Below, piece after piece: positions 2,421-24,542 of a stretch of 24,689 nt of DNA. The notes under the pieces were generated by a model. That model ran no database searches and was not told where the DNA came from. It saw only the letters and a list, made by a program, of their open reading frames with translations. The DNA is taken from positions 1 through 24,689 of IMG/VR virus record IMGVR_UViG_3300037847_001064; one strand, given 5' to 3'. This stretch comes from a virus. Within the stretch, counting starts at the first letter, position 1. Each line of letters begins with the position of its first letter. A program made the translations under genes and the position numbers.

Positions 2421-2422
2421 TT

Positions 2423-2671: not shown

Positions 2672-2672
2672 T

Positions 2673-2831
2673 ATGGAAGAGACACTACAAAGATTATCCG
2701 TAGGAATCTTCGGATGGATAGCCACGGATACATTGCAGAGCGTAGACCTTGTGCTCGGTGTGGTGTCTAAAACAGCTTTGATTGCTCTAACTATTTTATC
2801 AATCTATAAATTATGGAAGGATCTTAAATGA
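2673..2831 (+). CDS. small membrane protein, holin candidate
   Basis: A 52-residue protein beginning MEETLQRL. I chose ATG 2673, one base after the previous stop and preceded by GAGGAAG; a longer in-frame reading from 2616 would overlap the previous gene without need. It has one clear transmembrane helix near residues 25-45 (LVLGVVSKTALIALTILSIY) and ends in a basic KLWKDLK tail, giving a short N-terminal amphipathic part and a cytoplasm-facing positive end. The size, single helix and pairing with the next membrane gene fit a small holin or pinholin, but no endolysin is in the window to support this. It overlaps the next gene by ATGA. Confidence 0.7.
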   Translation: MEETLQRLSVGIFGWIATDTLQSVDLVLGVVSKTALIALTILSIYKLWKDLK

Positions 2832-3235
2832 CAACAGAATTATTAGCAATGCTAGGAGGAGGATTCTCCGGGTTCGTATTCAAGTTGATCGGCACTATGG
2901 TTCAAAACCAAGCAGCTGTCACTGAAGGACTTATTAAAAGACAACAAGCATCAGACGCAAGTGCAGATGCAGCAGCAGCTAGGGTAGATGCCTTTGGTGC
3001 TTGGACTAGACGTATTATTGTATTGACTGTACTATTTGGAGTAATTGTTGCACCATTTATTTTAGCTCATAGCGAAGAAGGCGTAACAGTTGCTCACGAA
3101 TATAGCAAGTGGTTTGGCTTTGTTAAAGGCACAACTTACGAAACTCTACACGGATATATAATTTTACCAGAAATCAAAACAGCGGTTATCAGTATTATTT
3201 CCTTTTATTTTGGAAGTGCCGCAGTAAGTAAATAA
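2828..3235 (+). CDS. membrane protein, holin-like
   Basis: A 135-residue protein starting in an ATGA overlap with the previous gene, with AAGGA eight bases upstream. The N-terminus is Gly-rich (LGGGFSGF) and weakly hydrophobic, then comes a charged, Ala-rich helical stretch (about 35-57) and two hydrophobic helices, about 63-81 (IIVLTVLFGVIVAPFILA) and about 113-132 (ending ISFYFGSAAVSK). The order of a helical N-terminus followed by two or three membrane spans and a final YFG motif is seen in holin-like proteins of many marine phages. I call it a holin candidate by topology and context; the lytic role is inference. Confidence 0.7.
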   Translation: MTTELLAMLGGGFSGFVFKLIGTMVQNQAAVTEGLIKRQQASDASADAAAARVDAFGAWTRRIIVLTVLFGVIVAPFILAHSEEGVTVAHEYSKWFGFVKGTTYETLHGYIILPEIKTAVISIISFYFGSAAVSK

Positions 3236-3257
3236 TTATGAATTGTAAATTATGTAA

Positions 3258-4154: not shown

Positions 4155-4324
4155 TGGAATTTTTTAAATACATTTTCGACAACTACAAGGACAATATGCT
4201 AGGAATAGCATTTGCCTACATTGGTATAATATCTATAGTAATGATGTTTCTGCCTAAGGACAACTTCATTGCCAAAGCCTTTAAAGAGGTAGCATCAATC
4301 TTTACATCCCTATTTAAAAAATGA
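4154..4324 (+). CDS. 56-aa single-span membrane protein
   Basis: A 56-residue protein, MEFFKYIFDNYKDN at its N-terminus, then one hydrophobic helix (about 15-33, LGIAFAYIGIISIVMMFL) and an amphipathic basic C-terminus ending SIFTSLFKK. Its ATG overlaps the stop of the upstream gene (TAATG) and its stop overlaps the next start (ATGA), so the three genes are probably translated as a coupled unit. Small, single-span and coupled to other membrane genes, it could be part of a lysis or superinfection-exclusion set. No family recognised. Confidence 0.7.
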   Translation: MEFFKYIFDNYKDNMLGIAFAYIGIISIVMMFLPKDNFIAKAFKEVASIFTSLFKK

Positions 4325-4599
4325 GCCACGAATTTTCAGAACTTGATATTGACAACGACTTCGACTACGGTTGGGGTGATAGCATTACATCCACTAACTT
4401 TAATTATTTCTTTGTACCATCTATACCAGAGTGGGCATACAGTGAATTTGACGGATTACTTTACGAAGGTAAAGAGTACAACTGGAATGAAGTAGAGTAC
4501 AGACTTTCAGTAGATTACAATAGTGTGCCAGAGCCTGCATTTGTTGGTTTATTTATGGGACTTTGTTTACTGACAGTGGCTCTAATTAAAAGAAAGTAA
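4321..4599 (+). CDS. small protein with PEP-CTERM-like C-terminal tail
   Basis: A 92-residue protein. The first 65 residues are acidic and aromatic (many Asp, Tyr, Phe, Trp; for example DYGWGD at 15-20) with no signal peptide. The C-terminus has the exact order of a PEP-CTERM sorting signal: VPEP at 69-72, a hydrophobic helix at about 73-89, and a terminal basic KRK at 90-92. In bacteria such tails are recognised by exosortase, which sorts proteins through the inner membrane in species with exopolysaccharide-linked systems (Verrucomicrobia, Planctomycetes and some Proteobacteria). The absence of an N-terminal signal peptide is odd for a true exosortase substrate, so it may instead be a tail-anchored protein that mimics one. 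It starts in an ATGA overlap with the upstream membrane gene. Motif certain as seen; function inferred. Confidence 0.75.
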   Translation: MSHEFSELDIDNDFDYGWGDSITSTNFNYFFVPSIPEWAYSEFDGLLYEGKEYNWNEVEYRLSVDYNSVPEPAFVGLFMGLCLLTVALIKRK

Positions 4600-4609
4600 T
4601 TCTAGAATT
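4598..4609. repeat. perfect 12-bp palindrome between genes
   Basis: AATTCTAGAATT reads the same on both strands. It starts on the stop codon of the PEP-CTERM-like gene and lies about 25 bases before the next start, at the border between the membrane-protein set and the basic-protein cassette. It is AT-rich and has no following T-run in the form of a terminator. It could be a protein-binding site or chance. Confidence 0.35.
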
Positions 4610-4633
4610 TAATTTACAAAAACTTATAATATT

Positions 4634-4834
4634 ATGAAAAAATCTAAAATCCTTGCAAAGTTAGCAAATATAGCAAAAAACAATCCTTCCCAGAGAAAAT
4701 CATTAGGGAAATACTTAGGGCCTGGTGTACTAACAATGTTAGACAGACAGATGATTGATCCTGACTACGGTAGACGAGTTCTAGAAAATACTTCAAAAAA
4801 AACAAAAAAATCTAATAACCCAAATAGGAGATAA
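4634..4834 (+). CDS. 66-aa basic protein with PGVLTMLDRQMI motif
   Basis: A 66-residue, strongly basic protein (N-terminus MKKSKILAKLANIAKNN, C-terminus rich in Lys, Asn and Arg). Residues 29-41 read GPGVLTMLDRQMI. The same motif is found in the 168-residue protein at 5588-6094 and, in diverged form (GPGVLTEFDRQVI), in the ejection-type protein at 11592-12941. The DNA under the motif (4721-4757) matches 5783-5819 at 36 of 37 positions. The start follows a 34-base AT-rich gap; there is no obvious Shine-Dalgarno site. It opens the cassette of small basic genes. Function unknown; the shared motif suggests a common partner in the virion or assembly pathway. Confidence 0.7.
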   Translation: MKKSKILAKLANIAKNNPSQRKSLGKYLGPGVLTMLDRQMIDPDYGRRVLENTSKKTKKSNNPNRR

Positions 4835-4839
4835 TAATT

Positions 4840-4923
4840 ATGCCATACGGTAAAGGAACATACGGAAGTAAAGTCGGAAGACCACCTAAAAAGAAAACTA
4901 TGAAAAAGAAGGGTCGTAAGTAA
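4840..4923 (+). CDS. 27-aa Lys/Gly-rich micro-protein
   Basis: ATG 4840 to TAA 4921-4923, preceded by AGGAG nine bases upstream. The product begins MPYGKGTYGSKVGRPPKKK and is about 40 percent Lys/Arg. The VGRPPKKK part resembles the GRP core of AT-hook peptides, which sit in the minor groove of AT-rich DNA; this is a resemblance only. The stop overlaps the next start (TAATG). Very short, but the ribosome site, coupling and similar neighbours support it as a real gene. Micro-proteins with a similar MPYGKGTYG start recur in marine phages, from memory. Confidence 0.65.
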   Translation: MPYGKGTYGSKVGRPPKKKTMKKKGRK

Positions 4924-4988
4924 TGCACAAAGGTAAGGGTAGCTGCCCTGGTGGTAAAAAAGGTAAAACTAAAAGGAGACGTAAGTAA
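4923..4988 (+). CDS. 21-aa Lys/Arg/Gly-rich micro-protein
   Basis: ATG shares its A with the previous stop (TAATG) and the stop at 4986-4988 again overlaps the next ATG. The product starts MHKGKGSCPGGKKGK and ends TKRRRK, with one Cys. At 21 residues it is at the limit of what can be called from sequence, but it lies in an unbroken chain of coupled small genes in one operon, and the fit of both overlaps argues for translation. Likely nucleic-acid binding by charge; no family recognised. Confidence 0.5.
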   Translation: MHKGKGSCPGGKKGKTKRRRK

Positions 4989-5113
4989 TGCCATTTAGTA
5001 AATACAGTCCTAAACAAAAAAAACTTGCACGTTTGGCGATCCCTAGAGATAAGATAACAGCAGCAGACCTGGAGGTACTACGAGGTGAAAAGAAAAATAC
5101 TAAGCGTAGCTAG
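4988..5113 (+). CDS. 41-aa basic micro-protein
   Basis: Starts in a TAATG overlap, with AAGGAGA about nine bases upstream. Product MPFSKYSPKQKKLARLAI at the N-terminus, then an acidic-mixed helix (ITAADLEVLRG) and a basic end KKNTKRS. The KQKKLARLA and AADLEVLR parts could form two short helices, unlike the purely Lys/Gly neighbours. The last 29 bases overlap the following GTG-started gene. Function unknown. Confidence 0.6.
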   Translation: MPFSKYSPKQKKLARLAIPRDKITAADLEVLRGEKKNTKRS

Positions 5114-5201
5114 AAAGCTAGAACAAGCTAGTAAAGCTCACGCTGGACAAGCTAAAATACTAAAATCGTTAATTAAGAATGGCAGCAAAAAGAAAGGGTA
5201 A
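5085..5201 (+). CDS. 38-aa basic micro-protein, GTG start
   Basis: This frame has no ATG, but GTG at 5085 is preceded by GGAGGT (5071-5076) at a spacing of eight bases, the best ribosome site in the cassette, which decides the start. Product (M)KRKILSVARKLEQASKAHA at the N-terminus and LIKNGSKKKG at the end; one helix with an Ala/Lys/Gln-rich face. It overlaps the previous gene by 29 bases and the next by 23 bases, so three frames are used in close succession. Charge suggests nucleic-acid contact; unproven. Confidence 0.6.
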   Translation: MKRKILSVARKLEQASKAHAGQAKILKSLIKNGSKKKG

Positions 5202-5343
5202 TAAGATATGTGCAGCCGGTAAAGCTTGGGCAAGACGTACATTTGATGTGTACCCAAGTGCTTATGCGAATATGGCTGCTTCTAAGTATTGTAAGGATCC
5301 TAATTACGCAAAGGGTGCTAAAGGTAAACGTAAGAAAAAGTAA
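5179..5343 (+). CDS. 54-aa Cys-containing basic protein
   Basis: ATG 5179 lies inside the end of the previous gene; TAA 5341-5343 overlaps the next ATG. The product opens MAAKRKGNKICAAGKAWARR, continues TFDVYPSAYANMAASKYCKD, and ends in a run of Lys. Two cysteines (11 and 38) and a conserved-looking YPSAYAN core suggest a small fold rather than a plain basic tail. From memory, small proteins with this core recur among marine phages as uncharacterised genes. No function assigned. Confidence 0.7.
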   Translation: MAAKRKGNKICAAGKAWARRTFDVYPSAYANMAASKYCKDPNYAKGAKGKRKKK

Positions 5344-5588
5344 TGGGTGAACTAAAAAAATGGGTAAAGCAAAACTGGGTAAGGATTGGTACTGATGGAG
5401 AAATCAAAGGCCCTTGCGGAACATCTAAGAACAAGAAGAATCCCGACAGGTGCCTTCCGATGGCTAAAGCTAGAAGTCTATCGAAATCCCAGCGTGCTGC
5501 AACAGCTCGCAAAAAGAAGAGAGGCCAAAAAGGCGGAAGAGCCGTTGTCCCAAATACACCATCAGCGAAAGTAAGAACTAAAAAGTAA
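5343..5588 (+). CDS. 81-aa basic protein with GPCGTSKNKKNPDRCLP core
   Basis: An 81-residue protein: MGELKKWVKQNWVRIG, then GPCGTSKNKKNPDRCLPMAK (about 23-42; two cysteines) followed by SLSKSQRAATARKKKRGQKGG and a basic C-terminus. The frame fits both neighbours through TAATG overlaps at each end. The paired cysteines with the K/N-rich loop and the QRAATARKKKR helix look like a recurrent small family in marine phages that, as far as I know, has no assigned function. Likely DNA- or RNA-contacting by charge. Confidence 0.75.
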   Translation: MGELKKWVKQNWVRIGTDGEIKGPCGTSKNKKNPDRCLPMAKARSLSKSQRAATARKKKRGQKGGRAVVPNTPSAKVRTKK

Positions 5589-6094
5589 TGGCATTGCAAT
5601 ATACATACAATCCAGATGGCTCAATCAAATCTGTTGTTAGCGTAAATCCAGACGGAACTCGAAAAGTAGGAACTGATGATACTCCATTGCCCGTTCTAGG
5701 ATACTCAATTCCTAATACGGCGTTAAACAAAATAAATGCTAAAGAAGAGATGTTTGGTTCATTGCGATCAATGTTAAAAAAACCTGGTGTACTAACAATG
5801 TTGGACAGACAGATGATTGCGGATCAAATGCAAGAAATAGGAGATTTTAACAACCAAAAATTTGATCCGATAACAGGACAATCTGGAAAAAGAAATATAG
5901 AGGATTTTAAAAAATTTATTCGTATAAATAAAGAGGGTTTTTTGAGAGACGAAGGTCAGTTCGAAGGATTTCGTGGCGGAGGAATGAAAAGTTTTAATGA
6001 ATTTTTAGATAATTTACAAGAGGGCAAAATAGATCAATTATCTCCAGAAGAAGCAAAGTTTATAGACGATTTAAAAAACAATAGAGTGAATTAA
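5588..6094 (+). CDS. 168-aa protein with PGVLTMLDRQMI motif
   Basis: A 168-residue protein, mixed charge, unlike the Lys-rich genes around it. N-terminal part has a beta-like NPDGSIKSVVSVNPDGTRKV stretch (8-27). Residues 66-77 read PGVLTMLDRQMI, the same as in the 66-residue protein upstream, with near-identical DNA (5783-5819 against 4721-4757, one silent change). The C-terminal half is helical and charged (RNIEDFKKFI, SPEEAKFIDDLKNN). Start at the TAATG overlap with the previous stop. The shared block looks like a copied module; the rest of the protein is unique in the window. Function unknown; possibly a minor virion protein. Confidence 0.75.
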   Translation: MALQYTYNPDGSIKSVVSVNPDGTRKVGTDDTPLPVLGYSIPNTALNKINAKEEMFGSLRSMLKKPGVLTMLDRQMIADQMQEIGDFNNQKFDPITGQSGKRNIEDFKKFIRINKEGFLRDEGQFEGFRGGGMKSFNEFLDNLQEGKIDQLSPEEAKFIDDLKNNRVN

Positions 6095-6333
6095 TGAGAA
6101 AAGAGCACAAAAGTAAAAAGGGTGGATTGACAGCAGCTGGACGTGCTTACTTCAAGCGCAAGACAGGTGCCAATCTAAAACCACCAGTAACAGAAAAAAA
6201 TCCTAAAGGTAAAAGAGCTGCCAGGAAGAAATCTTTCTGTGCTCGTATGAAGGGCGTAAAAGGCCCTATGACAGATTCTAAAGGCCGTCCTACACGCAAG
6301 GCTCTAGCACTTCGTAGATGGCGTTGTGGTTAA
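6094..6333 (+). CDS. 79-aa basic protein, DUF6321-like
   Basis: A 79-residue basic protein: KKGGLTAAGRAYFKRKTGANLKPPV in the N-terminal half, then KSFCARMKGVKGPM and a C-terminus TRKALALRRWRCG. This order (GGLTAAGR, LKPPVT, SFCARMxGVKGPM, KALALRRW) is that of a recurrent small phage family I recall as DUF6321, whose function is not known. Two cysteines (about 49 and 78). It is the last gene of the basic cassette and abuts the large tail-hub gene. Family call from memory; a profile search would settle it. Confidence 0.75.
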   Translation: MRKEHKSKKGGLTAAGRAYFKRKTGANLKPPVTEKNPKGKRAARKKSFCARMKGVKGPMTDSKGRPTRKALALRRWRCG

Positions 6334-6336
6334 TTT

Positions 6337-9135
6337 ATGGCACGTTATGATACATATCTAGCTGGTGATGATAAAAAGCTAGAGGAACAGGAGCTTGGAT
6401 TCAAAGGATTCAACGATCGCTTACGCCCGGATCAGATTGGCCCAGGGATGTTACAAAAGAGCGAGAACGGAAGACTAGACCTCAATGGTCAATGGCAATC
6501 TCGTAAAGGTGTACAGAATAGATTATCACCTTTTGCAGTAAGTGGTACAGCTCTAAGATTACCTACAGAAGATGAGATTACAGCTGGTGAAATAATGCTC
6601 TTGTCCCATACTATAAGTGCCGCTACACATTCTGGTGGAGTTGTAACTTTGACAACTTACAATGAAGCGACTAGTGCCGTTGATGATCATCATTTATCTG
6701 TAGGAGATACAATACAAGTAAACGATATTGTTTCAGATGATTCTAATCCGGACATCGTGAATGGAACATTTACTATAGCATCTGTTCCTACTAGTAGCAC
6801 ATTAACATATGCGGTATCTGGTAGTAGTACATTGACTGTATCTAATGGTGCAAATATGACTGCCACTGGAGGCACTGATGTTACTGCGGACTCATATAGT
6901 AGATCTGGCACTACACTAACTATAAATGAAACTGCTCACGGATTATCAAACGGAACAGCGATTACAATAAGTGGATTAAGTGTTGCTTCCGGAACAAATC
7001 CGAACGGAGATAGATTTATATCAAATGTAAGTACAAACTCTTTTGATGTGGTAGTAACTGGCTTAGCTGTAACTCCTACCGGAACACTTGTGTACAATCA
7101 CGGAAAAGAAAGATTTTCATTTACTCCTCAAGAACTTACTACTGGTACACCTCCAAAGTTTTTACCTTGTGCTGGCGGCGTTATCTTGAATGACTCCGCA
7201 GTATCTGAAGTTACTTGCGGATGCAAGTTTAGTGATCCAAATGAAACAACTGATGAAGAGTATATATTACTTGCTTCTAATGCAAAGGTTGTAGCATTTA
7301 ACACAAGTACACTAGAGTCCTTTGATATGCCGTTGAAGACTGGTGAAACAATTCCAGAGGATTCATCGATTTTACAAGTATTTAATAAAGTAATTATATT
7401 TAGAGGCGGTCAAATATCTTTAGAGAATAATAAGTTCTTTTCTCCTATTACTATCAGTAAAGCAACTAGAGGTAATGTTGATAGTAGCGGTGATGCTGCT
7501 ACTACTGGTAGAATTACCACATTTGCAAATCACGGATTAGAGACTGGAGATTCTGTAGATATTAGTGGGCTCACTGGAACCACTGATCCTACTGGTCAAT
7601 TTGAAATAACTAAAATTAGCGACAAAGTATTTACTTACTCAATAGGATCTGGAACCGGATCAGAGACTTATACGTTGTCAGATGCTAAAGTAAGTCCTAC
7701 TTTCTTGTTGGTTGCTAATGGTGATTACACTCAACCGGTTAAACTCGCTGCTACTGGATTTGTTATAACTAACGGAGTAGCTACAGTTACAGTATCTAAC
7801 ACTTTGTCTCAAGGTGATACAGTGGTTCTAACAGTTGCTGGAAGTAGTACATTAACTGCGTTTACTGAGTTTATAGTTTCAGAAGCAACAAGTTCATTAT
7901 TCAAATTTTTTGTAAACTCAAGTGACGTAACTAATCAAACCGATGTAGTATTTACACAAAAGGTTTCGGAGGGCTTAGGGTTTACTCACTCGCCAGCTCC
8001 AAACTTCGGTGCTTATCATAATAAGAGATTAGTAGTACCATATAACTTTGAAGTTACTGGATCATCCGGAAGTGCAACAATTACTGATAGGAATATCAAG
8101 GACGAAGTGCTTATATCTGATATATTAGATTCGGATACATTTGACCAAATATTTTCACAGTTTAGATTCAATGCTGGTAGTGCCGACTTCGTGGTAGGAT
8201 TCCAATCATTTGCTAATGACCAACTTATTATATTTAATCGTAATAGTATTCATACTGTATTTAATACAATAAATCTTGCTTCATCATCTGTAAGACAAGT
8301 AACTGACGAGGTTGGATGTTTAGCTCGTAGAAGTATAGAACAAATCGGATCCGAGGTTTTATTCTTATCCGATAATGGTGTTTATGGTATATCTTTCGTA
8401 GATGAGTACAACCTTAGAGGTACTGCTTTACCGCTCAGTGAGCCCATAAATAAAACTATCCAACGTATAAATAAAGCCCACGCAGATAAATCTGTATCAG
8501 CATACTTTGATAATAGATATTATTTAGCAGTTCCTTTAGATGATTCAATAGAAAACAATGCTGTTATTATTTACAACTTTCTAAATAAACAGTGGGAATC
8601 TATTGATACCTATGGAAATGGTACTACGACTTTTGATATATTGGACTTGATTGTAGCTGGTAAAGGCACAAATAGAGCCGTATACGCTATCAATAAACAA
8701 GGTGGTATACATCAACTAGATGTAAATGAAAACGGACAAGATGCTATAATTTCTACACTAGGTCAAGATACAGCTACTGCTGTAGAAGTGGAAGCCGTAG
8801 CTAGAACTAGACAATTTACAATAGGTAGCATAGACCGCAAGAAATGGAATGATTTTGAGATTCACGCCGAGTCCGGCGAGTTCCCTACGGACTTCTCAAT
8901 AGCTGGTAACACAGAGAATATTGACGAAGATAATATAGACCTCAAAACCTTACATCAACTCAACGGAGGTTCTAACCTGGCGGCAGAAGAAGATGTTGCC
9001 ATACGTGGTAGAATAGGTAACAAGAGAGCATACGGACTCGATATAGAAATTACAAGAATTACTGGAAGACCTAAACTGAGGGCAGTGAAGGTTTCTGGTG
9101 TAGAAACATTTAGATCAACACATAGAGCAGAATAA
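6337..9135 (+). CDS. large tail hub/nozzle-like structural protein
   Basis: A 932-residue protein. Residues 1-60 (LGFKGFNDRLRPDQIGPGML, then NGRLDLNGQWQSRKGV) are the typical opening of large podovirus tail or head-stabilising proteins. Residues about 75-550 contain at least four copies of a small beta module with the pattern HGL-x-x-GD-x-V-x-ISGL ... G-x-F-x-I, near residues 118, 198, 397 and 488. The C-terminal part (about 560-930) has repeated short strands such as NDQLIIFNRNSIHTVF and VLFLSDNGVYGISF, which fit a beta-propeller as in P22 gp10 or T7 gp12-type nozzle proteins. The gene ends in TAATG with the next start. It probably forms part of the tail tube or hub through which DNA passes; the exact ring position is inference. 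Confidence 0.7.
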   Translation: MARYDTYLAGDDKKLEEQELGFKGFNDRLRPDQIGPGMLQKSENGRLDLNGQWQSRKGVQNRLSPFAVSGTALRLPTEDEITAGEIMLLSHTISAATHSGGVVTLTTYNEATSAVDDHHLSVGDTIQVNDIVSDDSNPDIVNGTFTIASVPTSSTLTYAVSGSSTLTVSNGANMTATGGTDVTADSYSRSGTTLTINETAHGLSNGTAITISGLSVASGTNPNGDRFISNVSTNSFDVVVTGLAVTPTGTLVYNHGKERFSFTPQELTTGTPPKFLPCAGGVILNDSAVSEVTCGCKFSDPNETTDEEYILLASNAKVVAFNTSTLESFDMPLKTGETIPEDSSILQVFNKVIIFRGGQISLENNKFFSPITISKATRGNVDSSGDAATTGRITTFANHGLETGDSVDISGLTGTTDPTGQFEITKISDKVFTYSIGSGTGSETYTLSDAKVSPTFLLVANGDYTQPVKLAATGFVITNGVATVTVSNTLSQGDTVVLTVAGSSTLTAFTEFIVSEATSSLFKFFVNSSDVTNQTDVVFTQKVSEGLGFTHSPAPNFGAYHNKRLVVPYNFEVTGSSGSATITDRNIKDEVLISDILDSDTFDQIFSQFRFNAGSADFVVGFQSFANDQLIIFNRNSIHTVFNTINLASSSVRQVTDEVGCLARRSIEQIGSEVLFLSDNGVYGISFVDEYNLRGTALPLSEPINKTIQRINKAHADKSVSAYFDNRYYLAVPLDDSIENNAVIIYNFLNKQWESIDTYGNGTTTFDILDLIVAGKGTNRAVYAINKQGGIHQLDVNENGQDAIISTLGQDTATAVEVEAVARTRQFTIGSIDRKKWNDFEIHAESGEFPTDFSIAGNTENIDEDNIDLKTLHQLNGGSNLAAEEDVAIRGRIGNKRAYGLDIEITRITGRPKLRAVKVSGVETFRSTHRAE

Positions 9136-9887
9136 TGGCAACAGTAAAATCTGGTATAGGTTCAAACGGTAGCGGATTTAGTAATAGTGATACAGTCACT
9201 TCTACTACTCTGAATAACCACGTAAATGACGCAACAGTAACAAATATTGTTAATGACGATGTTGCTAGTAATGCGGCAGTAGCGGTAACAAAATTGGCTG
9301 AAATAACTAACCAAAACGTATTAGGTAATATAGGTTCTGGTAACGCTAGTGTGCCTATTGTTGGAGCAAGCGGATTATTGTTAGATGAGGATACAATGTC
9401 AACTGACTCTAACACCAAAGGTGCTACACAACAAAGTATCAAAGCATATGTGGACGCAGAAATAGCCAAAAAGAAAAGAAATTGTTTAGTAACTAATACT
9501 TCAAGTAGTATTGCTGTTACTCATCCTACTATACTTTCTTTTAATTCAGAAATATCTGATGATAATAATCTGCACGATAATAGCACCAATAACAGTAGAA
9601 TCACTGTAGACACTACTGGAGTTTATATTATCAATGCAATTATAGCTACAGATGAAACAGACAATGGGGACTATTCAGCCGCTATCAGAAAAAATGGAAC
9701 AGAATTGTGCTACATTAGAAATGATAGTGGTAGTACTGTCTCTTCTCCCGGTTTATCTATAGAAATTTCACATACGGCTTTATTATCTTCTGGTGATTAC
9801 ATAGAATTAGAATTAGTTAAAACATCGGGTGTCGGTTGTAATGTTATCGGTACAAAAACTTTTTTCAGTGCAACCTTAGTATCTTAA
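9135..9887 (+). CDS. tail fibre with C1q-like C-terminal domain
   Basis: A 250-residue Ser/Asn/Thr-rich protein. N-terminal residues 1-60 include repeated TVTNIVNDDVASNAAVAVTK-type segments typical of fibre shafts; residues about 75-115 (LLLDEDTMSTDSNTKGATQQ then SIKAYVDAEIAKKK) form the short coiled-coil linker seen before fibre head domains. Residues about 120-250 look like a jelly-roll of the C1q/TNF type: YIINAIIATDETDNGDYSAA, then strands ending FFSATLVS. Such trimeric heads bind receptors. It lies directly between the hub and a collar-domain fibre, so it is probably a receptor-binding or baseplate spike component. Fold call is by pattern only. Confidence 0.65.
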   Translation: MATVKSGIGSNGSGFSNSDTVTSTTLNNHVNDATVTNIVNDDVASNAAVAVTKLAEITNQNVLGNIGSGNASVPIVGASGLLLDEDTMSTDSNTKGATQQSIKAYVDAEIAKKKRNCLVTNTSSSIAVTHPTILSFNSEISDDNNLHDNSTNNSRITVDTTGVYIINAIIATDETDNGDYSAAIRKNGTELCYIRNDSGSTVSSPGLSIEISHTALLSSGDYIELELVKTSGVGCNVIGTKTFFSATLVS

Positions 9888-9890
9888 ATT

Positions 9891-10466
9891 ATGTCAGTAA
9901 TAACTAAAGGAAAAACTTTCGCAAACGGTGAGCAACTTACAGCTGGTAAGTTGAATCAAATGCTTGATGCTGCTACATTTAGTTCATCCGCCGTTGACAA
10001 TACTAAGACTACACTATCTGGTGGTGCTATTACAATTGCTCCAGATGCGATTACATCTACTGAAGTTGCACAATCATTTTTAGATACGATTTATCCAATT
10101 GGCTCTATTTACACAAATGCTACAAACTCAACAAATCCCGGAACACTATTAGGGTTCGGTACTTGGGTATCTTTTGGTGCTGGTAGAGTACCAGTAGGTA
10201 TTGATTCCAGTGACACAGACTTTGATACAGCAGAAGAAACCGGAGGTGTAAAAGAAGTTACACTTACTGCGGCACAATCTGGATTGCCGTCTCATAGTCA
10301 TACACTACTTGGTGGTAGTTTTGATGGTAGTAGTGGTGCAGAACCCGGCAATAGTCGAGCTAGTGATTTAGGTCAAACTGGTACAACTGGTGGCACAGAT
10401 GCATCATCAGCTCATACGAATTTACAACCCTACATAGTCGTATATATGTGGAAACGAACAGCTTAG
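9891..10466 (+). CDS. collar-domain tail fibre / short fibre protein
   Basis: A 191-residue protein with a recognisable C-terminal collar-type head. After a shaft-like N-terminus (about 1-65, with LTAGKLNQMLDAATF) come PIGSIYTNAT (about 69-78), GFGTWVSFGAGRVPVG (about 88-103), a TGG and EVTLTAAQSGLPSHSHTL stretch containing the His-x-His pair, and the final AHTNLQPYIVVYMWKRTA. In T4 gp12 and related fibres the HxH pairs of a trimer bind a metal ion; the same layout is seen here. Function: receptor binding or fibre tip in the virion. Family call is firm; which organelle part it serves is not. Confidence 0.85.
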   Translation: MSVITKGKTFANGEQLTAGKLNQMLDAATFSSSAVDNTKTTLSGGAITIAPDAITSTEVAQSFLDTIYPIGSIYTNATNSTNPGTLLGFGTWVSFGAGRVPVGIDSSDTDFDTAEETGGVKEVTLTAAQSGLPSHSHTLLGGSFDGSSGAEPGNSRASDLGQTGTTGGTDASSAHTNLQPYIVVYMWKRTA

Positions 10467-10467
10467 T

Positions 10468-11589
10468 ATGAAAAACTTTTTAATAGAATTTTTTAGACCT
10501 CTAGATAATCTTATCTTTAATTACTTCGTAAGGATTGGAGCGATTAAACCTTTTCTTAGTTCAATACTTCCAGCAGTTGGTAAATTTCTAGGAAGTTCAG
10601 CCGGTAAAGCAATAGCTGGTCAAGCAGTCAGTGGTGCCTTAGGTTCTAGGTCAGCCCGTAGGGCCTCAAGAAAAGCATCAGCTTCAATGGAAAGAGCTTA
10701 TCAACAGCTAAGAGATCCTTCAGAAATTATTAGAGATGCTTACAGTACTGGCATTTATAGCCCAGAACTAATGGGCACTATTCTTGGTAGAGAAAGAGAA
10801 CTGATACCTCAGTTTCAAGAGTTAGCTGGACTTAGGGCTCGTGGTGTTAGAGACATACAAGAAGAGTCTAAGTTACGTCAGTTGGATTTGCTAGGTCAAT
10901 ACGGTGCAGATATCAGAGAAACTTTAGAAGATCCAAGATTAGCTAGACTAGCTGAACTAGAAATGGCTGAAGCTGAAAGATTATCTACAGAAGCCGCTGC
11001 TCCACTCTCTGGAGAAAGAGCTAGAGAAGCAGAACAAACTGCATTACAAATGGCTGTTCGCCAAGGTAGAGGTAGAGGTCAAGGAGCTGTGGCTCAAGCA
11101 ATATTAGGCCGTGCTGGTGCTTCCGATGTACTTTCTCAACAAGCTGCTGCTGCTAGACAAAGAGCACTGCAAACATCTTCAGCAGCTATGGTAGATCCAT
11201 CTCGTTTCTTATTTACACCTTCTGTTGAAGAACAGATATTTGTTAATACACCTTTAGGGGTGCAAGTCACAGACCCTGGAATGGCAGCATCATTAGGTTC
11301 TGCTACAGATGTACAAAGAGCACAGGCACTATTAGGTCAAGGTTTAGCTCAAGCACAAGGAGCCGCGGCACAAGGTAAGATACTAAGTTCAACAATTGGA
11401 GGAATTGGAGGTATATTGGGCAATATGGATTTTGGAAGTAAGCCAAAAGCAAATGTTCCTAGTATGAATCAAATTTATTCTAGTGGAATAGATGCATTCA
11501 ATCAAGCTAATGTACTACAGAATCAAATAGACAATACAATAGGCAACTTAGGAAACTTAGGATTTTCAATAGGAGACTTACGAAACTAA
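10468..11589 (+). CDS. internal virion / ejection-type protein A
   Basis: A 373-residue, Ala/Arg/Gln-rich, mainly helical protein starting one base after the fibre stop. Residues about 32-60 are Gly/Ala-rich and weakly hydrophobic (SILPAVGKFLGSSAGKAIAG), followed by a long helical section (about 65-260) full of Arg/Glu/Ala (GRERELIPQFQELAGLRARG), then a second Gly-rich part around residues 305-320. This composition and its place first in a run of three growing helical proteins after the tail genes match the small and middle ejection proteins of podoviruses, which leave the capsid with the DNA and build a channel across the cell envelope. No specific family motif recognised, so the role is inferred. 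Confidence 0.65.
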   Translation: MKNFLIEFFRPLDNLIFNYFVRIGAIKPFLSSILPAVGKFLGSSAGKAIAGQAVSGALGSRSARRASRKASASMERAYQQLRDPSEIIRDAYSTGIYSPELMGTILGRERELIPQFQELAGLRARGVRDIQEESKLRQLDLLGQYGADIRETLEDPRLARLAELEMAEAERLSTEAAAPLSGERAREAEQTALQMAVRQGRGRGQGAVAQAILGRAGASDVLSQQAAAARQRALQTSSAAMVDPSRFLFTPSVEEQIFVNTPLGVQVTDPGMAASLGSATDVQRAQALLGQGLAQAQGAAAQGKILSSTIGGIGGILGNMDFGSKPKANVPSMNQIYSSGIDAFNQANVLQNQIDNTIGNLGNLGFSIGDLRN

Positions 11590-11591
11590 TT

Positions 11592-12941
11592 ATGCTTCAA
11601 GGATCATCACCTATACAGTTATCTCAACTTGACGTAACGCCTGCTTTACAAGCTGCTGCTTTAGAGCAACAAGGTATACAAGAAGTAACAGCTGGATTAC
11701 AGACCGCTATTTTAGGTTTTGCTCAAAAACAACAAGAGAAAAAAATAAAAAATCAGCGCGAAGCTCAACTGAACACATTTATGCCACAATTTCTAGAAAA
11801 TATGGGCATAGGTATTGAAGCTGGTTCTCCAGAATATAGCGCACTTATTAAGTACATAAATAATACTAGTGGTGGCGATATTATGAGCGTATTAAAAGCT
11901 ATGGGAGATTTGCCTACGCCGACTGAAGCTCCTACTTTACAAACTGTAACTGGCCCAGATGGACAACAGGTATATACATTTGATGGCGACATAGTTGATC
12001 CCGACAAAGTCTTTGATCCAAATGCACCCGAAGTTCAATCATTAGGTTTTGGTTCCGAATACCCAAGAACATACTTAGTAAACTATGATGATGGTGGAAC
12101 ACCAGATGACCCAAGTGATGACACAGATGCTTATCGAGTACTAGCTTCACAAGTAAATGAAGTGAGTCCTGGATTAAAAGACAGATTCGGTAATCAAATC
12201 ACAAAGGGTCAACAAGTTTATTACGATAATGAAGGTAAATTAAATGTGCTAGATCTTACTAAGGTGACACCAATGTCAGATAGCTCTTTAGTGAACTTAG
12301 AGGATAGACTGAATAAATCTTTTGAGTTATACAATCAAAAAGTTCAAGAAACAAAAGACTTTAAAGATTATATAGACACTAGAGGTCGTATGAGTGACTC
12401 TGGTGGTACACGATTCTTAGAACAACTATCATTTGCTTATAAAAATCTTGTTGGAGACGATGCTGTTACTGCGGCTGAATATGCTACAGCTGAGGGTAAA
12501 GCTAAATTTAGACAACAACTGGGTGCACTTAGAGTACCAATATTAGGCCCAGGTGTTTTGACAGAATTTGACAGACAAGTTATTGAGCAAGCAATTGGAG
12601 GATTTGGCGTGCTGACAAATAACCAATTGGCTATAAATTTAGTGAATCAATATTTAGAGAGATCTATAGCACAGGGCGTGCGAGCTGGAAAAGCGTATAA
12701 TGAGTTATACAGACAAGCACCTCGTGAAATTAAATTAGGTATGTCACCAGTAGATTTATCAGAAATACAAGGTAATTTAATAATAAACCCAACAAAGAAT
12801 ATACAATCTGATTTTTCTATTGCTTTTGATTCGCCAACAGATGCTAGAGACTACCTAATATCGATAAAAGCAGCACCCGGAACTACTTTCAAATTCGGTG
12901 ATGACTATTATACATTAAAGCCATACAATACAACAGACTAA
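11592..12941 (+). CDS. internal virion / ejection-type protein B with GPGVLTEFDRQVI motif
   Basis: A 449-residue protein starting after TAATTATG. N-terminal residues 1-60 are Gln/Ala-rich and helical (LQAAALEQQGIQEVTAGL); the middle (about 110-250) is Asp/Thr-rich with beta-like segments such as DGQQVYTFDGDIVDPD; residues 319-331 read GPGVLTEFDRQVI, a diverged copy of the motif in the two small proteins upstream. The motif is followed by a helix (EQAIGGFGVLTNNQLAINLV). It lies between two other ejection-type genes and overlaps the next by TAATG. The motif may be how several small proteins and this one dock to the same capsid or portal site. Role inferred from context. Confidence 0.65.
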   Translation: MLQGSSPIQLSQLDVTPALQAAALEQQGIQEVTAGLQTAILGFAQKQQEKKIKNQREAQLNTFMPQFLENMGIGIEAGSPEYSALIKYINNTSGGDIMSVLKAMGDLPTPTEAPTLQTVTGPDGQQVYTFDGDIVDPDKVFDPNAPEVQSLGFGSEYPRTYLVNYDDGGTPDDPSDDTDAYRVLASQVNEVSPGLKDRFGNQITKGQQVYYDNEGKLNVLDLTKVTPMSDSSLVNLEDRLNKSFELYNQKVQETKDFKDYIDTRGRMSDSGGTRFLEQLSFAYKNLVGDDAVTAAEYATAEGKAKFRQQLGALRVPILGPGVLTEFDRQVIEQAIGGFGVLTNNQLAINLVNQYLERSIAQGVRAGKAYNELYRQAPREIKLGMSPVDLSEIQGNLIINPTKNIQSDFSIAFDSPTDARDYLISIKAAPGTTFKFGDDYYTLKPYNTTD

Positions 12942-15900
12942 TGAGTGCAGACGAAATAGAAGGTTTAGAAAAAATATCAGAAGCAGAATATCTTGAGACT
13001 ATAGGTCAGATGTATCAAGAAGGTGATCAACAATTAATGTTTGAGTCTACTCCAACAGCAGTTGATGAAGATAACATATACAATGTTATGGCCAGAAAAG
13101 AGCAAGAAATGTCAGAAAGAGATTTCTTTAACTTTCAAGATCGTGAAGCAAGAACCATTTTAGATGTTGATATGATGCTAGGCTCGTATGGTGTTGGGGA
13201 TTTAGTTTACGATGTTGTCATAGAACCTGGTATGTTTTTAACTGGTTCGACATTTGATATAGCTAATGGATTATTATTAGGTCTAGATAGAATGGTTGTA
13301 GAAACTGATAATTACTTTAGATCTAAAAAAGGTGAACCAAAACGAGTAAAGGGAGATTCAATTTTTGGAGATATAGCAAGAATGACCAACTCGTATCATA
13401 TGGGTCAACTTAATAGAGAAATTAACAGGCAAGCAGAGGCAATCCGTGCAATGCCAGATTCAGAGGACAGATTTGAAAACGCCAAAAGAATTACTGGTGA
13501 GTACGCATCTTTTTACGCATATCTTTTTGGAGCATTAGAGGTCGGGAAGAAGATTCCAGGCGTAAGAACATTTGCTAAAAAAGTTGATACACTAACTAGA
13601 CAAGCTATACTCAAAAACCCTTGGGCAACAGCTGGCGTAGAGGGTCTTGGTGTACTTGCTGAAACTGAAGTAGTAGCGCGAGGAGGCGGTGCTTTAGAAC
13701 AAGGTGGAGCAGGTATAACGGCAACCGTAGTTGTACCCTTTGTATATAATGCACACATAAAAAGCCAAGCTAGAAAGCGGGCAAGTGCAGTAGCTAGAGC
13801 TTACTTTGAAAATATGGGCTACAGAAACTTTCAGAGTGCAGCCGAACTATTGCAAAGAGTAACAGATCCAGAGAAAAGCGCTGAGTATCTTCACAAGCTA
13901 ATGAAGGATGGTAATCTACCGCCAGATGTTAAGGCACCGTTGCAGTTATTGCTAGGCGATGAGGGATTTACTTATCTAGAAACTATTTTAAACACTGCAA
14001 AGGATGGGGCGGTAAACATATCCCTCAGAGATAAAGAGTTTTTACAACAATTGAATAAACTCATAGAGCCTGTTTCTAAGGGTAAGGTTGTAGATGCAGA
14101 ATCGTGGTTTAGACTTTCTCAACAAATGTTTGAAAAAGATTTAGCGGCATCAACATCAAAACTAACACAAGAGGCCATAGAGCAGTTAAGTCAAGTTACA
14201 AAGAATTTACCCGACCCAGATGAAATAGCTACAGCTACATTTCAAGCGTTACAAGAGTCAAAGACAATATTTAGCAAACAAGTCGATGATGCTTGGGAAT
14301 TAGTAGATTTAGATGTAAGTTTACCAGGAACTGGTATATTTGGAGACTTCAATAGAATAGTATCTGTTCCTACAATAGATATAAATGCAAAAAACATTAA
14401 TGAAGTACTAAACAGATTTGAATCTGGTAAAGGTGGTCTCAAACAACTTAATGAAGAGTATCTTTTAAGACTAAATGCAGATGAAGTATATGCTACTCAA
14501 GACATATTAAGACAAGGTGTTATCGAAGCTACTGGTGGTAGTAAGAAAGCATTAAAGAAGTTTGATAGCTTCATAGCACAAGTTGATGCCCATAGGCAAC
14601 AAAGGCAAGCAAACGGAGTTCACACTGGAAATGCTTTTTCAAATCCAGAAGCCCTAAGAAATGCTTACGGAGATACTTATTTAACTAATGTAGCCACAGT
14701 AGCTAAAATACCTTACGAGAGTGCAACAATGCAAACCATTGAGGCTCTTGCTCAAAAACACGGCATTGATGCTTTACCACTTAGTGCACAAGAAATATTA
14801 AGGGGCGATAGAAAAATCAAGACTATCGGCGATCTTTACGAACTAAGAAGAACCTTAGGCACTGAAGGTATGGGTGGCATAGAAAAGGGTCAAGTAAGAC
14901 AAAACGCTTATTTTGCAAATGAAATAAGAAGTTCAATCTTAGATGATTTAGCTGAGTTACCAGATGAAGGTAATCTAACTCTAAAGAGAGCAATTGCGTT
15001 TTCTCGTGATTATAACACAACATTTAAATCTGGCATCGTAGGCAAAATATTACAGCTTTCATCAGATGGTAGTCCAATAGATCCTACTTTATCATTATTA
15101 AATGTTTTTAAAACCGGAGGAAACAATCTAAATAGAACCGGTAAAGTTAATGTTAATCAAATTCTTTTAGCTACTAAGAATATTAAATCAACTCCTGCTG
15201 GTGACATAACAAGAGTTAAAAATGGTTCTGTTGAGCAACTCTTACAAGATTATATGGTTAACTTGTTTGTAAACACAAGAGGTGTTGTGCAAGACGGAGC
15301 GTTAGTACCAGGAAGAGGTCAACTATTTTACGAAAATTACAAAGCAATACTTGATATGCCCGAAATGATAAGGGCTAAAGAAACTATTTTGAATGCATCC
15401 GGCGATGTATCCGTCATAAAAAAGATGCTGGACAACAATGTTTCATTGGCGAAAGTAAAGGCTGGATTCTATGGCAAGGAAAGTTTAGGCGCTGTTAATT
15501 TATTTTTAGGCGATGATATCACAACTGGCATCCAAAAGATGATGATGAGTAAAGGTGGTATCGAGCAGTTAAAAGAGTTGCAAAGATTGGTTATGTCTAA
15601 AGAGGTGCCAGAACATTTCTTTACCGATTTAGGTATATCGAGATCGCTGGTAAATGAAGGTATCAAAGACAGTGTAAGGTTAGGATTAATTGGCATAGCT
15701 GAACAAGGAACATCAGCAACATCTTTTAGTTTGTTAAATGATTTAGTAAAGACTGGATACAAAAGCGTTGGTGTGAATTATGAAGGACAACTTATTCCTT
15801 TTTTAAAGCAAGCTGGTTTTACTGCTGCAGAAATTAAGAATGTCCAAAAGTTTGCTAACGAACTAGAAAAGTACGGTAAATATATAGCAACAAAGGGTGG

Positions 15901-16543
15901 CAAAGCTAACGAGCCAGGTGGTTGGAAAAATGTAGATAATTTCTTTCATTCAATTATAGGTTTGTTCGTGGGTGGTGTTGGTGCCGACTTTTTCAGCAGT
16001 GGATCATCGTTAGCGGCTGCAACTTATATTAAAAAGCAAACCACAAATACACTACAAAAATTATCTGGCAACCAAGCAATTACTATAATTAATGATGCTA
16101 TGTCTGATCCTAAGTTATTGGATGAATTACTTAGAACTCCTACTTATTTCAATAAAAATCAATTAGCAAAAAGTAGGCCGTACTTATTTAAATATTTAGT
16201 CAGTAGAGGATTAGAAAACTTTGGTGCACCAAGTGATGAAGAAGTGGCACAAAAACTTGAGGATTTACAAAAATCAGATATACGGTTGCCGGAAGAACTT
16301 TTATTTGGATTAGAATTAGATAATGCTGCAAACTCATCAATATCATCTACTTTGATTTCAGATACACCTAGGTTAGAAGCTATCGATATTACCCAACGTC
16401 AATTAGAGCAAGATGCAGGTTTGAGGGAAATAATAGATCGGTTAGGAGCAGCAAATCCAGAAAATCTAAACGATCCTAGAAATAGAGCAATTATCGAAGA
16501 TTTAGAGAGACGTGAACAATTTAGAGCATCTCAACAACAGTAG
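12941..16543 (+). CDS. large internal virion / ejection protein C (1200 aa)
   Basis: The largest gene in the window, 1200 residues, mainly helical and charged. Several hydrophobic stretches stand out: about 89-118 (YDVVIEPGMFLTGSTFDIAN), about 187-200, about 227-270 (Gly-rich) and about 1001-1030 (FHSIIGLFVGGVGADFFSSG). I see no lysozyme or transglycosylase motif, unlike T7 gp16. Size, composition, membrane-prone segments and final position in the tail/ejection operon match the large ejection protein of podoviruses, which extends the DNA channel into the inner membrane. Its last 23 bases overlap the 3' end of the leftward nuclease gene, so the late and early transcription units converge with no gap. 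Confidence 0.65.
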   Translation: MSADEIEGLEKISEAEYLETIGQMYQEGDQQLMFESTPTAVDEDNIYNVMARKEQEMSERDFFNFQDREARTILDVDMMLGSYGVGDLVYDVVIEPGMFLTGSTFDIANGLLLGLDRMVVETDNYFRSKKGEPKRVKGDSIFGDIARMTNSYHMGQLNREINRQAEAIRAMPDSEDRFENAKRITGEYASFYAYLFGALEVGKKIPGVRTFAKKVDTLTRQAILKNPWATAGVEGLGVLAETEVVARGGGALEQGGAGITATVVVPFVYNAHIKSQARKRASAVARAYFENMGYRNFQSAAELLQRVTDPEKSAEYLHKLMKDGNLPPDVKAPLQLLLGDEGFTYLETILNTAKDGAVNISLRDKEFLQQLNKLIEPVSKGKVVDAESWFRLSQQMFEKDLAASTSKLTQEAIEQLSQVTKNLPDPDEIATATFQALQESKTIFSKQVDDAWELVDLDVSLPGTGIFGDFNRIVSVPTIDINAKNINEVLNRFESGKGGLKQLNEEYLLRLNADEVYATQDILRQGVIEATGGSKKALKKFDSFIAQVDAHRQQRQANGVHTGNAFSNPEALRNAYGDTYLTNVATVAKIPYESATMQTIEALAQKHGIDALPLSAQEILRGDRKIKTIGDLYELRRTLGTEGMGGIEKGQVRQNAYFANEIRSSILDDLAELPDEGNLTLKRAIAFSRDYNTTFKSGIVGKILQLSSDGSPIDPTLSLLNVFKTGGNNLNRTGKVNVNQILLATKNIKSTPAGDITRVKNGSVEQLLQDYMVNLFVNTRGVVQDGALVPGRGQLFYENYKAILDMPEMIRAKETILNASGDVSVIKKMLDNNVSLAKVKAGFYGKESLGAVNLFLGDDITTGIQKMMMSKGGIEQLKELQRLVMSKEVPEHFFTDLGISRSLVNEGIKDSVRLGLIGIAEQGTSATSFSLLNDLVKTGYKSVGVNYEGQLIPFLKQAGFTAAEIKNVQKFANELEKYGKYIATKGGKANEPGGWKNVDNFFHSIIGLFVGGVGADFFSSGSSLAAATYIKKQTTNTLQKLSGNQAITIINDAMSDPKLLDELLRTPTYFNKNQLAKSRPYLFKYLVSRGLENFGAPSDEEVAQKLEDLQKSDIRLPEELLFGLELDNAANSSISSTLISDTPRLEAIDITQRQLEQDAGLREIIDRLGAANPENLNDPRNRAIIEDLERREQFRASQQQ

Positions 16544-22490: not shown

Positions 22491-22760
22491 CTATTCTCCC
22501 TCTTCCCAATCGTACAAATCTCCCTCGATCTTATTTGACATCATAAGATTGACGAAATCTTCGTAAGATAGTTTTAGTATATGTTTGTTTGCATCAAATA
22601 TTTTGCAATCAGTTTTAGTTAAAACGACTCCATCTGTTCTGAACGATATTTCAGTATGAATGGTATCAGTTCCATCTATACATTTGTCTAATACATCTGA
22701 TACAGTATCGCTTGGATTCCATTTGTAAAAGATGTATGCTTTACATAATTCGTTGCTCAT
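22491..22760 (-). CDS. 89-aa acidic protein, unknown function
   Basis: An 89-residue protein starting MSNELCKAYIFYKWNPSD. ATG 22760 is chosen because AAGGAGG lies just upstream (spacer CAC-A) and ATGA overlaps the previous stop; a reading from 22787 would overlap the upstream gene needlessly. It is acidic, with Asp/Thr-rich middle (VLDKCIDGTDTIHTEISF) and ends DLYDWEEGE. Two or three cysteines. No family recognised. Small, acidic, early: the profile of phage proteins that bind host enzymes, but nothing specific supports that. Confidence 0.7.
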   Translation of the reverse strand: MSNELCKAYIFYKWNPSDTVSDVLDKCIDGTDTIHTEISFRTDGVVLTKTDCKIFDANKHILKLSYEDFVNLMMSNKIEGDLYDWEEGE

Positions 22761-22969
22761 TGTGCCTCCTTCTCGATGTTCGGACATATAAATCTAATCC
22801 AGTGATAATCTTGATCTACATCTAGTGCTTGATTATTGAAGTGCTTTTGAAAGTCCTCTAAGCTATAAACGAATCCTTGAGATTCGGCGATATCCATAAA
22901 TTGCTCATCTGTGTACATCGATGGGCAACCTTCTGTATGATTTTCATCTATTAAGTATATTTTAAACAT
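22757..22969 (-). CDS. 70-aa small acidic protein, unknown function
   Basis: A 70-residue protein: MFKIYLIDENHTEGCPSMYT, DEQFMDIAESQGFVYSLEDF, QKHFNNQALDVDQDYHWIRF and an end ICPNIEKEAQ. The first strand plus helices suggest a compact alpha/beta fold. No clear Shine-Dalgarno site (AT-rich leader). It is the first gene after the 150-base regulatory gap 22970-23121 and may be transcribed from the leftward promoter candidate there. Not recognised. Confidence 0.65.
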   Translation of the reverse strand: MFKIYLIDENHTEGCPSMYTDEQFMDIAESQGFVYSLEDFQKHFNNQALDVDQDYHWIRFICPNIEKEAQ

Positions 22970-23019
22970 TTTATTTCGTTGATTATAAGTGGGTTATAGG
23001 ATGCCAAGCTACTTTTGGC

Positions 23020-23048
23020 TTGACACCCATATTAGTATTGAGTATAAT
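23020..23048 (+). promoter_or_regulatory. perfect consensus sigma70 promoter, rightward
   Basis: TTGACA at 23020-23025 and TATAAT at 23043-23048 with exactly 17 bases between: twelve of twelve consensus positions at the best spacing. It points rightward, against the leftward early genes around it, with a start near 23055. No rightward gene of size follows (only a 16-codon frame at 23151), so the product would be an antisense or small RNA running into the Api92-like gene. A TGCCAAGC/GCTTGACA imperfect repeat overlaps the -35. Confidence 0.65.
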
Positions 23049-23062
23049 TGCTTTAACATCGG

Positions 23063-23098
23063 TAGCGATAACAGTGATAGTTATCTCAAAAAGGCTAC
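23063..23098. repeat. nested palindrome between facing promoters
   Basis: GATAAC (23067-23072) and GTTATC (23080-23085) form a perfect inverted repeat with a 7-base centre; GTAGC (23063-23067) and GCTAC (23094-23098) can pair outside it, sharing one base. It lies just downstream of the consensus rightward promoter and upstream of the start region of a weaker leftward promoter. It could be an operator shared by both, or a stem in a small RNA. Confidence 0.5.
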
Positions 23099-23107
23099 GG
23101 CAGGTTT

Positions 23108-23136
23108 GTAATAGTGTGCAGTTAAAAATCTAACAA
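23108..23136 (-). promoter_or_regulatory. weak leftward promoter candidate
   Basis: On the minus strand TTGTTA (23136-23131) and TATTAC (23113-23108) are 17 bases apart, each four of six against consensus. Transcription would start near 23101 and run leftward into the 70-residue gene and onward. Its start faces that of the consensus rightward promoter about 45 bases away. Weak alone. Confidence 0.3.
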
Positions 23137-23175
23137 AAACACTATGAGTAAGAAGATAACGAGTACAAATATCAT
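23122..23175 (-). CDS. possible 17-aa hydrophobic micro-peptide
   Basis: ATG 23175 shares its A with the stop of the Api92-like gene (TAATG), with GGAG ten bases upstream. The product MIFVLVIFLLIVFLLDF is almost wholly hydrophobic and would make one short membrane helix. The same stop-start overlap marks many real genes of this phage. A competing frame from ATG 23182 gives a 33-residue product ending at 23081. Too short to be sure that either is made. Confidence 0.3.
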   Translation of the reverse strand: MIFVLVIFLLIVFLLDF

Positions 23176-23888
23176 TATTCATTATCTCCTTTAGGGTTTG
23201 TTTGTTTTTCAAATTCCCACATTGCAGTAATGTGCTTATATAGTTCTTCGGCATCGATTTCGTGGTCACATTCGGAGTCCCAGATAAGACCTTCATACAT
23301 TTCGAAGACCTCGTCATAGGCTACCTCTCTCTGTTCCTCTGGATCGTACTGGTCATCGTATTTATAGTAACCGATATCAAATAGCTTATCAATAGTTGAC
23401 CAGATATCATCCTGCTCCAGATAGCTATAAGTAAATACCTCTCCGTCATCATCAGCAGAGCCATAAAATCCACATCCAGACTCACTAAATTCATAATGAA
23501 AGCTAAGACTAGGGAATTGCTTTTTCATAGCCACAATTAGCTCTGTCGACATAGGAGACCAAGCAGTATCAAAATTATAGCTTACGCCAAATTGACTGCT
23601 TTCTGGATTACTATCTTTAGAGCATTCAACAAAGCAGGCATTCCACTTTGTTCCCCAATGATCAATGCACCAGTTCCATCCGACATCGCTAAAGCTTCCA
23701 TTGACTCCATCGGGATATAGAAACTGAGAAAAATCTAAAGCTTGGGTTTCAGTCTTTTCATCAGTATTTCGAGTGACTCCACTCTTATCCCAGTAAAGAC
23801 CTTTGCCTTTAGCCGTCTCATAGAATTTTTCAACAAGCTCTGGAATATCTCCAGAGACTCTTAAATAATTACTGCACCAGTTAGGCAT
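23175..23888 (-). CDS. Api92-like protein (ferredoxin-like fold)
   Basis: A 237-residue acidic protein opening MPNWCSNYLRVSGDIPELVE, the signature start of the Api92/YubB-like family (MPNWC-x-N-x-L-x-V-x-G). Further family features are the NWCIDHWGTKWNA stretch (about 72-84) and SFHYEFSESGCGFYG (about 128-142). These proteins are common in phages and plasmids, carry a ferredoxin-like fold and have no established function. The C-terminal 80 residues are very acidic. A strong GGAGGTG site precedes the ATG, and the gene overlaps the upstream one by eight bases. Family firm, function unknown. Confidence 0.82.
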   Translation of the reverse strand: MPNWCSNYLRVSGDIPELVEKFYETAKGKGLYWDKSGVTRNTDEKTETQALDFSQFLYPDGVNGSFSDVGWNWCIDHWGTKWNACFVECSKDSNPESSQFGVSYNFDTAWSPMSTELIVAMKKQFPSLSFHYEFSESGCGFYGSADDDGEVFTYSYLEQDDIWSTIDKLFDIGYYKYDDQYDPEEQREVAYDEVFEMYEGLIWDSECDHEIDAEELYKHITAMWEFEKQTNPKGDNE

Positions 23889-24250: not shown

Positions 24251-24279
24251 TTTTTATGATCAAAATTAATTTTCGTCAA
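24251..24279 (-). promoter_or_regulatory. leftward early promoter candidate
   Basis: On the minus strand TTGACG (24279-24274, five of six) and TAAAAA (24256-24251, four of six) are 17 bases apart, in the 80-base divergent gap between the first leftward gene and the 41-residue rightward gene. It is well placed to drive the whole leftward early block. The leader would be very short, with no ribosome site visible. Confidence 0.5.
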
Positions 24280-24323
24280 TAAAAAACTTGCAATTATTTT
24301 CTAAATAGTTTTAAGTTCTAATT

Positions 24324-24449: not shown

Positions 24450-24470
24450 AGGCCGTTTTTCATAAGACTA

Positions 24471-24502
24471 AAGCCTAGGCCTAAAAACCTAGGCTTTTTT
24501 TT
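24471..24502. terminator. strong intrinsic terminator
   Basis: AAGCCTAGG (24471-24479) and CCTAGGCTT (24488-24496) pair perfectly over an 8-base loop, followed by six more T (24497-24502). It ends the 41-residue gene. Upstream of the stem the plus strand has few A residues, so it acts mainly rightward; the stem itself is symmetrical. Confidence 0.88.
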
Positions 24503-24542
24503 GCTTGCATTGTTTTAAATTATGATACAAATTAAAGGCCTT

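Follow-up and report, generated by a model that had tools for sequence, protein, structure and literature searches.

The 24,689-base window, the whole stretch of DNA analysed here, is a phage contig whose rightward genes extend from approximately position 867 to 16543, and whose leftward set runs from 24243 to 17009. The leftward genes encode a DnaB-like helicase, an ERF-type annealing protein, and an exonuclease, together with small genes, and the cumulative GC skew tracks gene direction, turning at the convergent point. Among the rightward genes, the one at 6337–9135 encodes a 932-aa protein with a Pfam E1_FCCH-domain match barely over the cut-off (30.4 versus 29.5 bits) and PHROGs matches to amidase/virion proteins. 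Upstream of the first leftward gene, an AT-rich stretch (GCAAGTTTTTTATTGAC, 24251–24300) common to the window and to L002, L021, L033, and L036 is likely the promoter of the leftward operon, and a putative head promoter, TTGACG-17-TAAAAA, can be assigned there by consensus match only (24251–24279, minus strand).

Two leftward ORFs of this set, at 22757–22969 and 23175–23888 (the latter an Api92-like gene), are separated by a gap of approximately 205 bases, which carries a sigma-70 consensus promoter on the plus strand (23020–23048). Its −35 hexamer, TTGACA, occupies 23020–23025 and its −10 hexamer, TATAAT, 23043–23048, with a 17-nt spacer between them; transcription would start at approximately 23055, as judged from spacing only. 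The preliminary description of this DNA had reported such a perfect rightward promoter amid leftward genes, with no sizeable rightward gene, and both points hold at exactly this position: the flanking ORFs are leftward, and no rightward ORF longer than 40 aa starts there. It had also estimated that a full-consensus match is unlikely by chance; the window has no second 12/12 match, and dinucleotide shuffles predict 0.042 per window for spacers of 16–18 (0.012 for a spacer of 17).

The other elements of that description fared differently. The weaker leftward promoter said to face this one, TTGTTA-17-TATTAC (23136–23108), matches the consensus at four of six bases in each hexamer, which is background level, since the minus strand of the window holds 449 sites of at least 8/12 (18 per kb). 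The palindrome placed between the two start regions, GATAAC-N7-GTTATC, does exist at 23067–23085, but it is ordinary: six-base inverted repeats number eight in the window at a loop of 7 nt, and 96 once loops of 3–12 nt are allowed. Moreover, its conservation was checked in five relatives and not found, one arm base being changed in L002 and the palindrome being absent from L033, L036, L256, and L257. The proposed role as a switch is not upheld, and the palindrome was rejected as an operator because it is degraded or lost in the relatives.

Conservation of the promoter in related contigs

Among these relatives, L002 and L033 were found via the Api92-like and helicase genes, L036 was added through a DNA pattern, and L256 and L257 through exonuclease alignment. 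The intergenic cassette, as shared with L002, spans 22970–23133 (plus strand), with block identities to the window of 94% in L002, 80% in L033, and 79% in L036, whereas L256 and L257 keep only approximately its first 82 bases, ending just past the −10 box. All five relatives hold TTGACA-16/17-TATAAT in the block, and sequence comparison establishes that the site exists, that it is unique, how it is oriented, and that it persists while spacer and surroundings change. In all six contigs, which are related to one another, so that these counts are not independent, the site lies at a gene junction and opposes its neighbours; none of these contigs (approximately 106 kb in total) has a second perfect site, the 36,025-base L256 contig included. 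This last contig (L341 + L342), whose gene order is as in the window, has a 77-base terminal direct repeat, which suggests that it is complete, and it is probably a whole 36-kb phage genome.

The 12 hexamer bases are invariant over the six sequences, in spite of five different spacer sequences and of a spacer length that is 17 in the window, L002, and L257, and 16 in L033, L036, and L256. When the window is compared with L033, both hexamers are identical (6/6 each), while the spacer keeps 12 of 17 bases and is one base shorter in L033, the next 28 transcribed bases keep 16, and the hairpin preceding the −35 box keeps 15 of 23. The left 27 bases of the cassette (24/27) and a 45-nt core (43/45), however, are as conserved as the promoter when judged by these alignments, and not all of the conservation here is explained by the promoter reading. 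The genes flanking the site, among them the one that follows the cassette when read leftward (22757–22969 in the window), differ among the window, L002, L033/L036, and L256/L257. A reversed-pattern control gave no match in the contigs of the five relatives.

Conservation, which the preliminary description had made a test of its reading, was found for the promoter in all five relatives. Invariant hexamers within a differing spacer, differing flanks, and a differing transcribed region make a good case for a functional promoter of the host type, and the site at 23020–23048 is very probably a genuine sigma-70 one. Its direction is unusual. A comparison set from less related phages (33 loci, 301 kb), fetched via the Api92-like or the helicase gene, plus C75C1, contains 25 perfect sites, and 25 of 25 are oriented with the reference gene, indicating that a perfect site is nothing exceptional for a phage promoter, whereas the antisense direction observed here is.

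The cassette was not found in more distant relatives that share the downstream gene (C75C1/L166, L046, L313, L325, and L292), nor did it match anything in an annotated phage collection. DNA-pattern matches beyond the known members were discarded, as those examined were due to chance, and L168 proved unrelated. Weak profile matches (E 0.06–0.08) to the left part of the cassette occur at L322:5644-5589(-) and L287:737-682(-), both with TTGACA and no matching −10 box, and each with an exonuclease gene approximately 350 bases downstream.

Three remoter relatives, L289, L294, and L299, whose exonuclease is approximately 50% identical, also have an antisense TTGAC[A/G]-16-TATAAT; it occupies other operon junctions and would precede a different RNA. 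Consensus or near-consensus promoters lie at L289:3146(-), L294:430(-), and L299:4167(-), and also at L289:364(+) and L299:274(+). Each is followed by untranslated sequence carrying a CCCC/GGGG hairpin and CCTTAAGGA(G) palindromes, in which a Shine-Dalgarno and an anti-Shine-Dalgarno motif are both present. Rfam gave no match for this stretch in any of the three loci, and the phage collection gave none for that of L294. Elsewhere in L299, positions 1218–1418 (plus strand) match the Rfam RAGATH-24 sRNA at 46.9 bits (gathering threshold 45.3).

The predicted opposing RNA and the hydrophobic peptide gene

On balance, the site is somewhat more probably than otherwise a conserved cis-antisense promoter, from which an untranslated RNA would restrain the leftward replication/recombination operon at this junction. 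This RNA would start from the host-type (sigma-70) promoter at approximately 23055 and run rightward, against the operon, so that it would be complementary to the operon transcript at the junction. Its action would most likely be in cis, through pairing with the leftward mRNA and/or through polymerase collision, and the expression on one side of the junction would be lowered or delayed. Transcription from the site, the RNA end, and the cis mechanism are what we infer; collision without base-pairing and antisense pairing fit these data equally well. What favours this role is that the promoter persists although the RNA sequence, the neighbouring genes, and even a peptide gene vary. In particular, the RNA sequence differs between the window/L033 group and L256/L257, which have the promoter in common, and this fits cis-antisense action, for which no conserved sequence is needed. 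The preliminary description had suggested an antisense RNA against the Api92-like transcript. The conserved, antisense-oriented promoter supports the first half of that proposal, but not the Api92-like transcript as its specific target, since the Api92-like gene is the upstream neighbour of the site in the window only and the other contigs have a different one.

The first part of the predicted RNA (23055–23121, plus strand) would consist of a variable 5′ portion followed by the 45-nt core (23077–23121). No conserved reading frame runs through the cassette in either direction; a 48-aa leftward ORF crossing it in L002 was rejected, as its frame is broken in L033 and L036 and it has no standard start in the window. 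Rfam searches with the cassette gave no match at the gathering threshold, and only a chance-level snoRNA match at E values up to 10. On neither strand does the region fold better than shuffled sequences (z-scores of −1.39 and 0.52 in the window, −0.46/−0.88 in L256, and 0.66/0.23 in L257). A search of the rightward strand of the window from the promoter to 24470 revealed no intrinsic terminator, and no convincing one was found around the site in L033, L036, and L256. A strong rightward intrinsic terminator, AAAGCCTAGG..CCTAGGCTTTTTTTTT, is present at 24470–24504 of the window, with a counterpart at L002 3729-3704(-); a long rightward antisense transcript would meet no canonical stop before it.

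The next feature rightward of the cassette is a leftward mini-ORF (23122–23175, minus strand) encoding the 17-aa, very hydrophobic peptide MIFVLVIFLLIVFLLDF (mean Kyte-Doolittle value of 3.2), the start of which and the stop of the Api92-like gene overlap. The peptide corresponds to MIILLALFLLIVFLLDV in L033 and MLILLALFLLIVFLLDV in L036, and its place is taken in L256 and L257 by a 34-aa ORF whose product is hydrophobic in its C-terminal half, for which neither Pfam nor PHROGs gave a confident match. Thus, five of the six contigs hold a very hydrophobic peptide gene of 17 or 34 aa just across the junction, and in these five a rightward transcript of sufficient length would be antisense to it, with base-pairing potentially covering the gene.

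This arrangement raises the possibility of a type I toxin–antitoxin-like pair, in which the peptide would be a membrane toxin or a lysis-timing peptide and the rightward RNA its antisense antitoxin. Such a pair is a special case of the cis-antisense explanation, and the most interesting one. The recurrence of a hydrophobic small ORF in the same place in two different forms speaks for it, as do a geometry like that of Ibs/Sib and the substitutions in the peptide gene, which avoid codon position 2: this position accounts for 1 of 13 differences between the window and L033 (p 0.04), for 1 of 16 when L036 is counted (p 0.014; the share of L036 being 0/3), and for 1 of 15 substitutions between the 34-aa ORFs of L256 and L257. 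On the other hand, L002 retains the promoter cassette and has no such ORF at this place, so that toxin and antitoxin are not always found together, and in L256/L257 the RNA would need to extend for approximately 170 nt before reaching the ORF. Additionally, Rfam has no match, including among known antitoxin RNA families, no terminator was found that would define an antitoxin RNA, and the mini-ORF is translationally coupled to the preceding gene, unlike a typical toxin mRNA. The absence of the peptide from L002, together with an RNA end that is not fixed by a terminator, led us not to file the locus as type I toxin–antitoxin; this reading is possible but unlikely for the site as a whole, and perhaps applies to most members. 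A bolder version, in which the only full-consensus host promoter opposes the replication operon and its cis-antisense RNA gates the hydrophobic peptide as a type I toxin–antitoxin-like or lysis-timing module, with the RNA sequence free and the promoter fixed, is put forward tentatively and with rather little confidence.

Other readings of the conserved site

A trans-acting phage small RNA, whose 45-nt core would pair with a phage or host mRNA encoded elsewhere, could account for the 43 of 45 core positions kept in L002, L033, and L036, above the level of the flanks and, in L002, in spite of the lost peptide gene. However, L256 and L257 keep the promoter and not the core, and neither a terminator nor an Rfam family marks such an RNA. 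Both a trans-acting RNA and a replication primer are disfavoured, since either should have retained its sequence, and we regard the former as improbable.

It is less probable still that the conserved feature is a leader or structured element of the leftward RNA between two genes, with the promoter match as a by-product on the reverse complement. In the window, the −35 box lies within a possible hairpin, GGGTGTCAAGC/GCTTGGCATCC (22999–23028, minus strand), that is more stable in the leftward RNA (−17.6 versus −11.4 kcal/mol rightward) and has a counterpart in L033 (−18.2 kcal/mol, leftward), and the 27 bases preceding the downstream gene are conserved too. Nevertheless, the −10 box is outside the hairpin, yet invariant while the bases on either side change; the hairpin arms vary between groups but keep TTGACA; and two full hexamers at a permitted spacing of 16 or 17 in six sequences would have to be a coincidence. 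The changes in L002 leave G-U pairs on the plus strand and break pairs on the minus strand, but L033 folds better on the minus strand, and consequently no strand-specific conclusion is drawn from the hairpin. A structured leftward RNA was dropped as the main explanation when the two hexamers turned out to be invariant around a spacer that changes. Finally, a transcription-activated origin or a primer RNA for phage replication would suit a single-copy site within a replication operon, but is highly implausible, as the skew trend does not change near the promoter, the cumulative GC skew following gene direction, and conservation of the transcribed sequence does not extend across the groups.

Relation to known antisense RNAs and biological meaning

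The cis-antisense promoter favoured here has precedents, since cis-antisense RNAs of phages are already known (OOP, aQ, sar, and those of PAK_P3); the present one is absent from Rfam and from the annotated phage collection searched. The lambdoid RNAs OOP (from pO), aQ (from paQ), and P22 sar arise from opposite-strand promoters in or beside a phage operon (PMC12197685). The likeness lies in an opposite-strand promoter of a phage operon that yields (here, is predicted to yield) an untranslated RNA complementary to phage mRNA, whereas the genes are different, no terminator was found before 24470 in the window, and no sequence relation was seen. The antisense transcripts of phage PAK_P3, found by RNA-seq and located mostly in the structural region, are thought to restrain phage genes (PMC4933390). 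They are likewise phage-encoded and cis-antisense, as predicted here, but the present site opposes a replication operon and was detected by conservation.

Regarding the peptide gene, Sib RNAs cover the entire ibs ORF and its ribosome-binding site (PMC4147584), and IbsC retains its toxicity when shortened to 15 aa of which at least 10 are hydrophobic (PMC8309996). The present locus resembles the Ibs/Sib pairs of E. coli in a very short hydrophobic ORF and an opposite-strand promoter whose RNA could cover that ORF and its ribosome-binding site, and differs in that the ORF is coupled to an upstream operon gene and missing in L002, and that no Sib RNA match was found in Rfam. The promoter/stem-loop (PeSL) cassettes of T4-like phages (Arbiol 2010 and Comeau 2014, as cited in PMC4503421) are also short regulatory cassettes with a promoter and a stem-loop at junctions with varying flanking genes; as far as that account describes them, they are present in many copies and the promoter drives the adjoining module, while here there is one perfect site per contig and it is directed against the genes.

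Phage antisense RNAs have mostly come from RNA-seq of cultured phages, whereas this candidate was picked out from uncultured contigs by comparison alone, through hexamers that are fixed in surroundings that are free. In most members, the comparison also links it with a mini-gene for a hydrophobic peptide, below the size ordinarily reported by gene callers, and the prediction is specific, as it names a single start site. If the sites of L289, L294, and L299 are analogous, the wider group would have antisense promoters repeatedly, with RNAs that are unrelated. Should a cis-antisense promoter prove general in this group, the antisense restraint of replication genes would be built into the infection programme, rather than being transcriptional noise.
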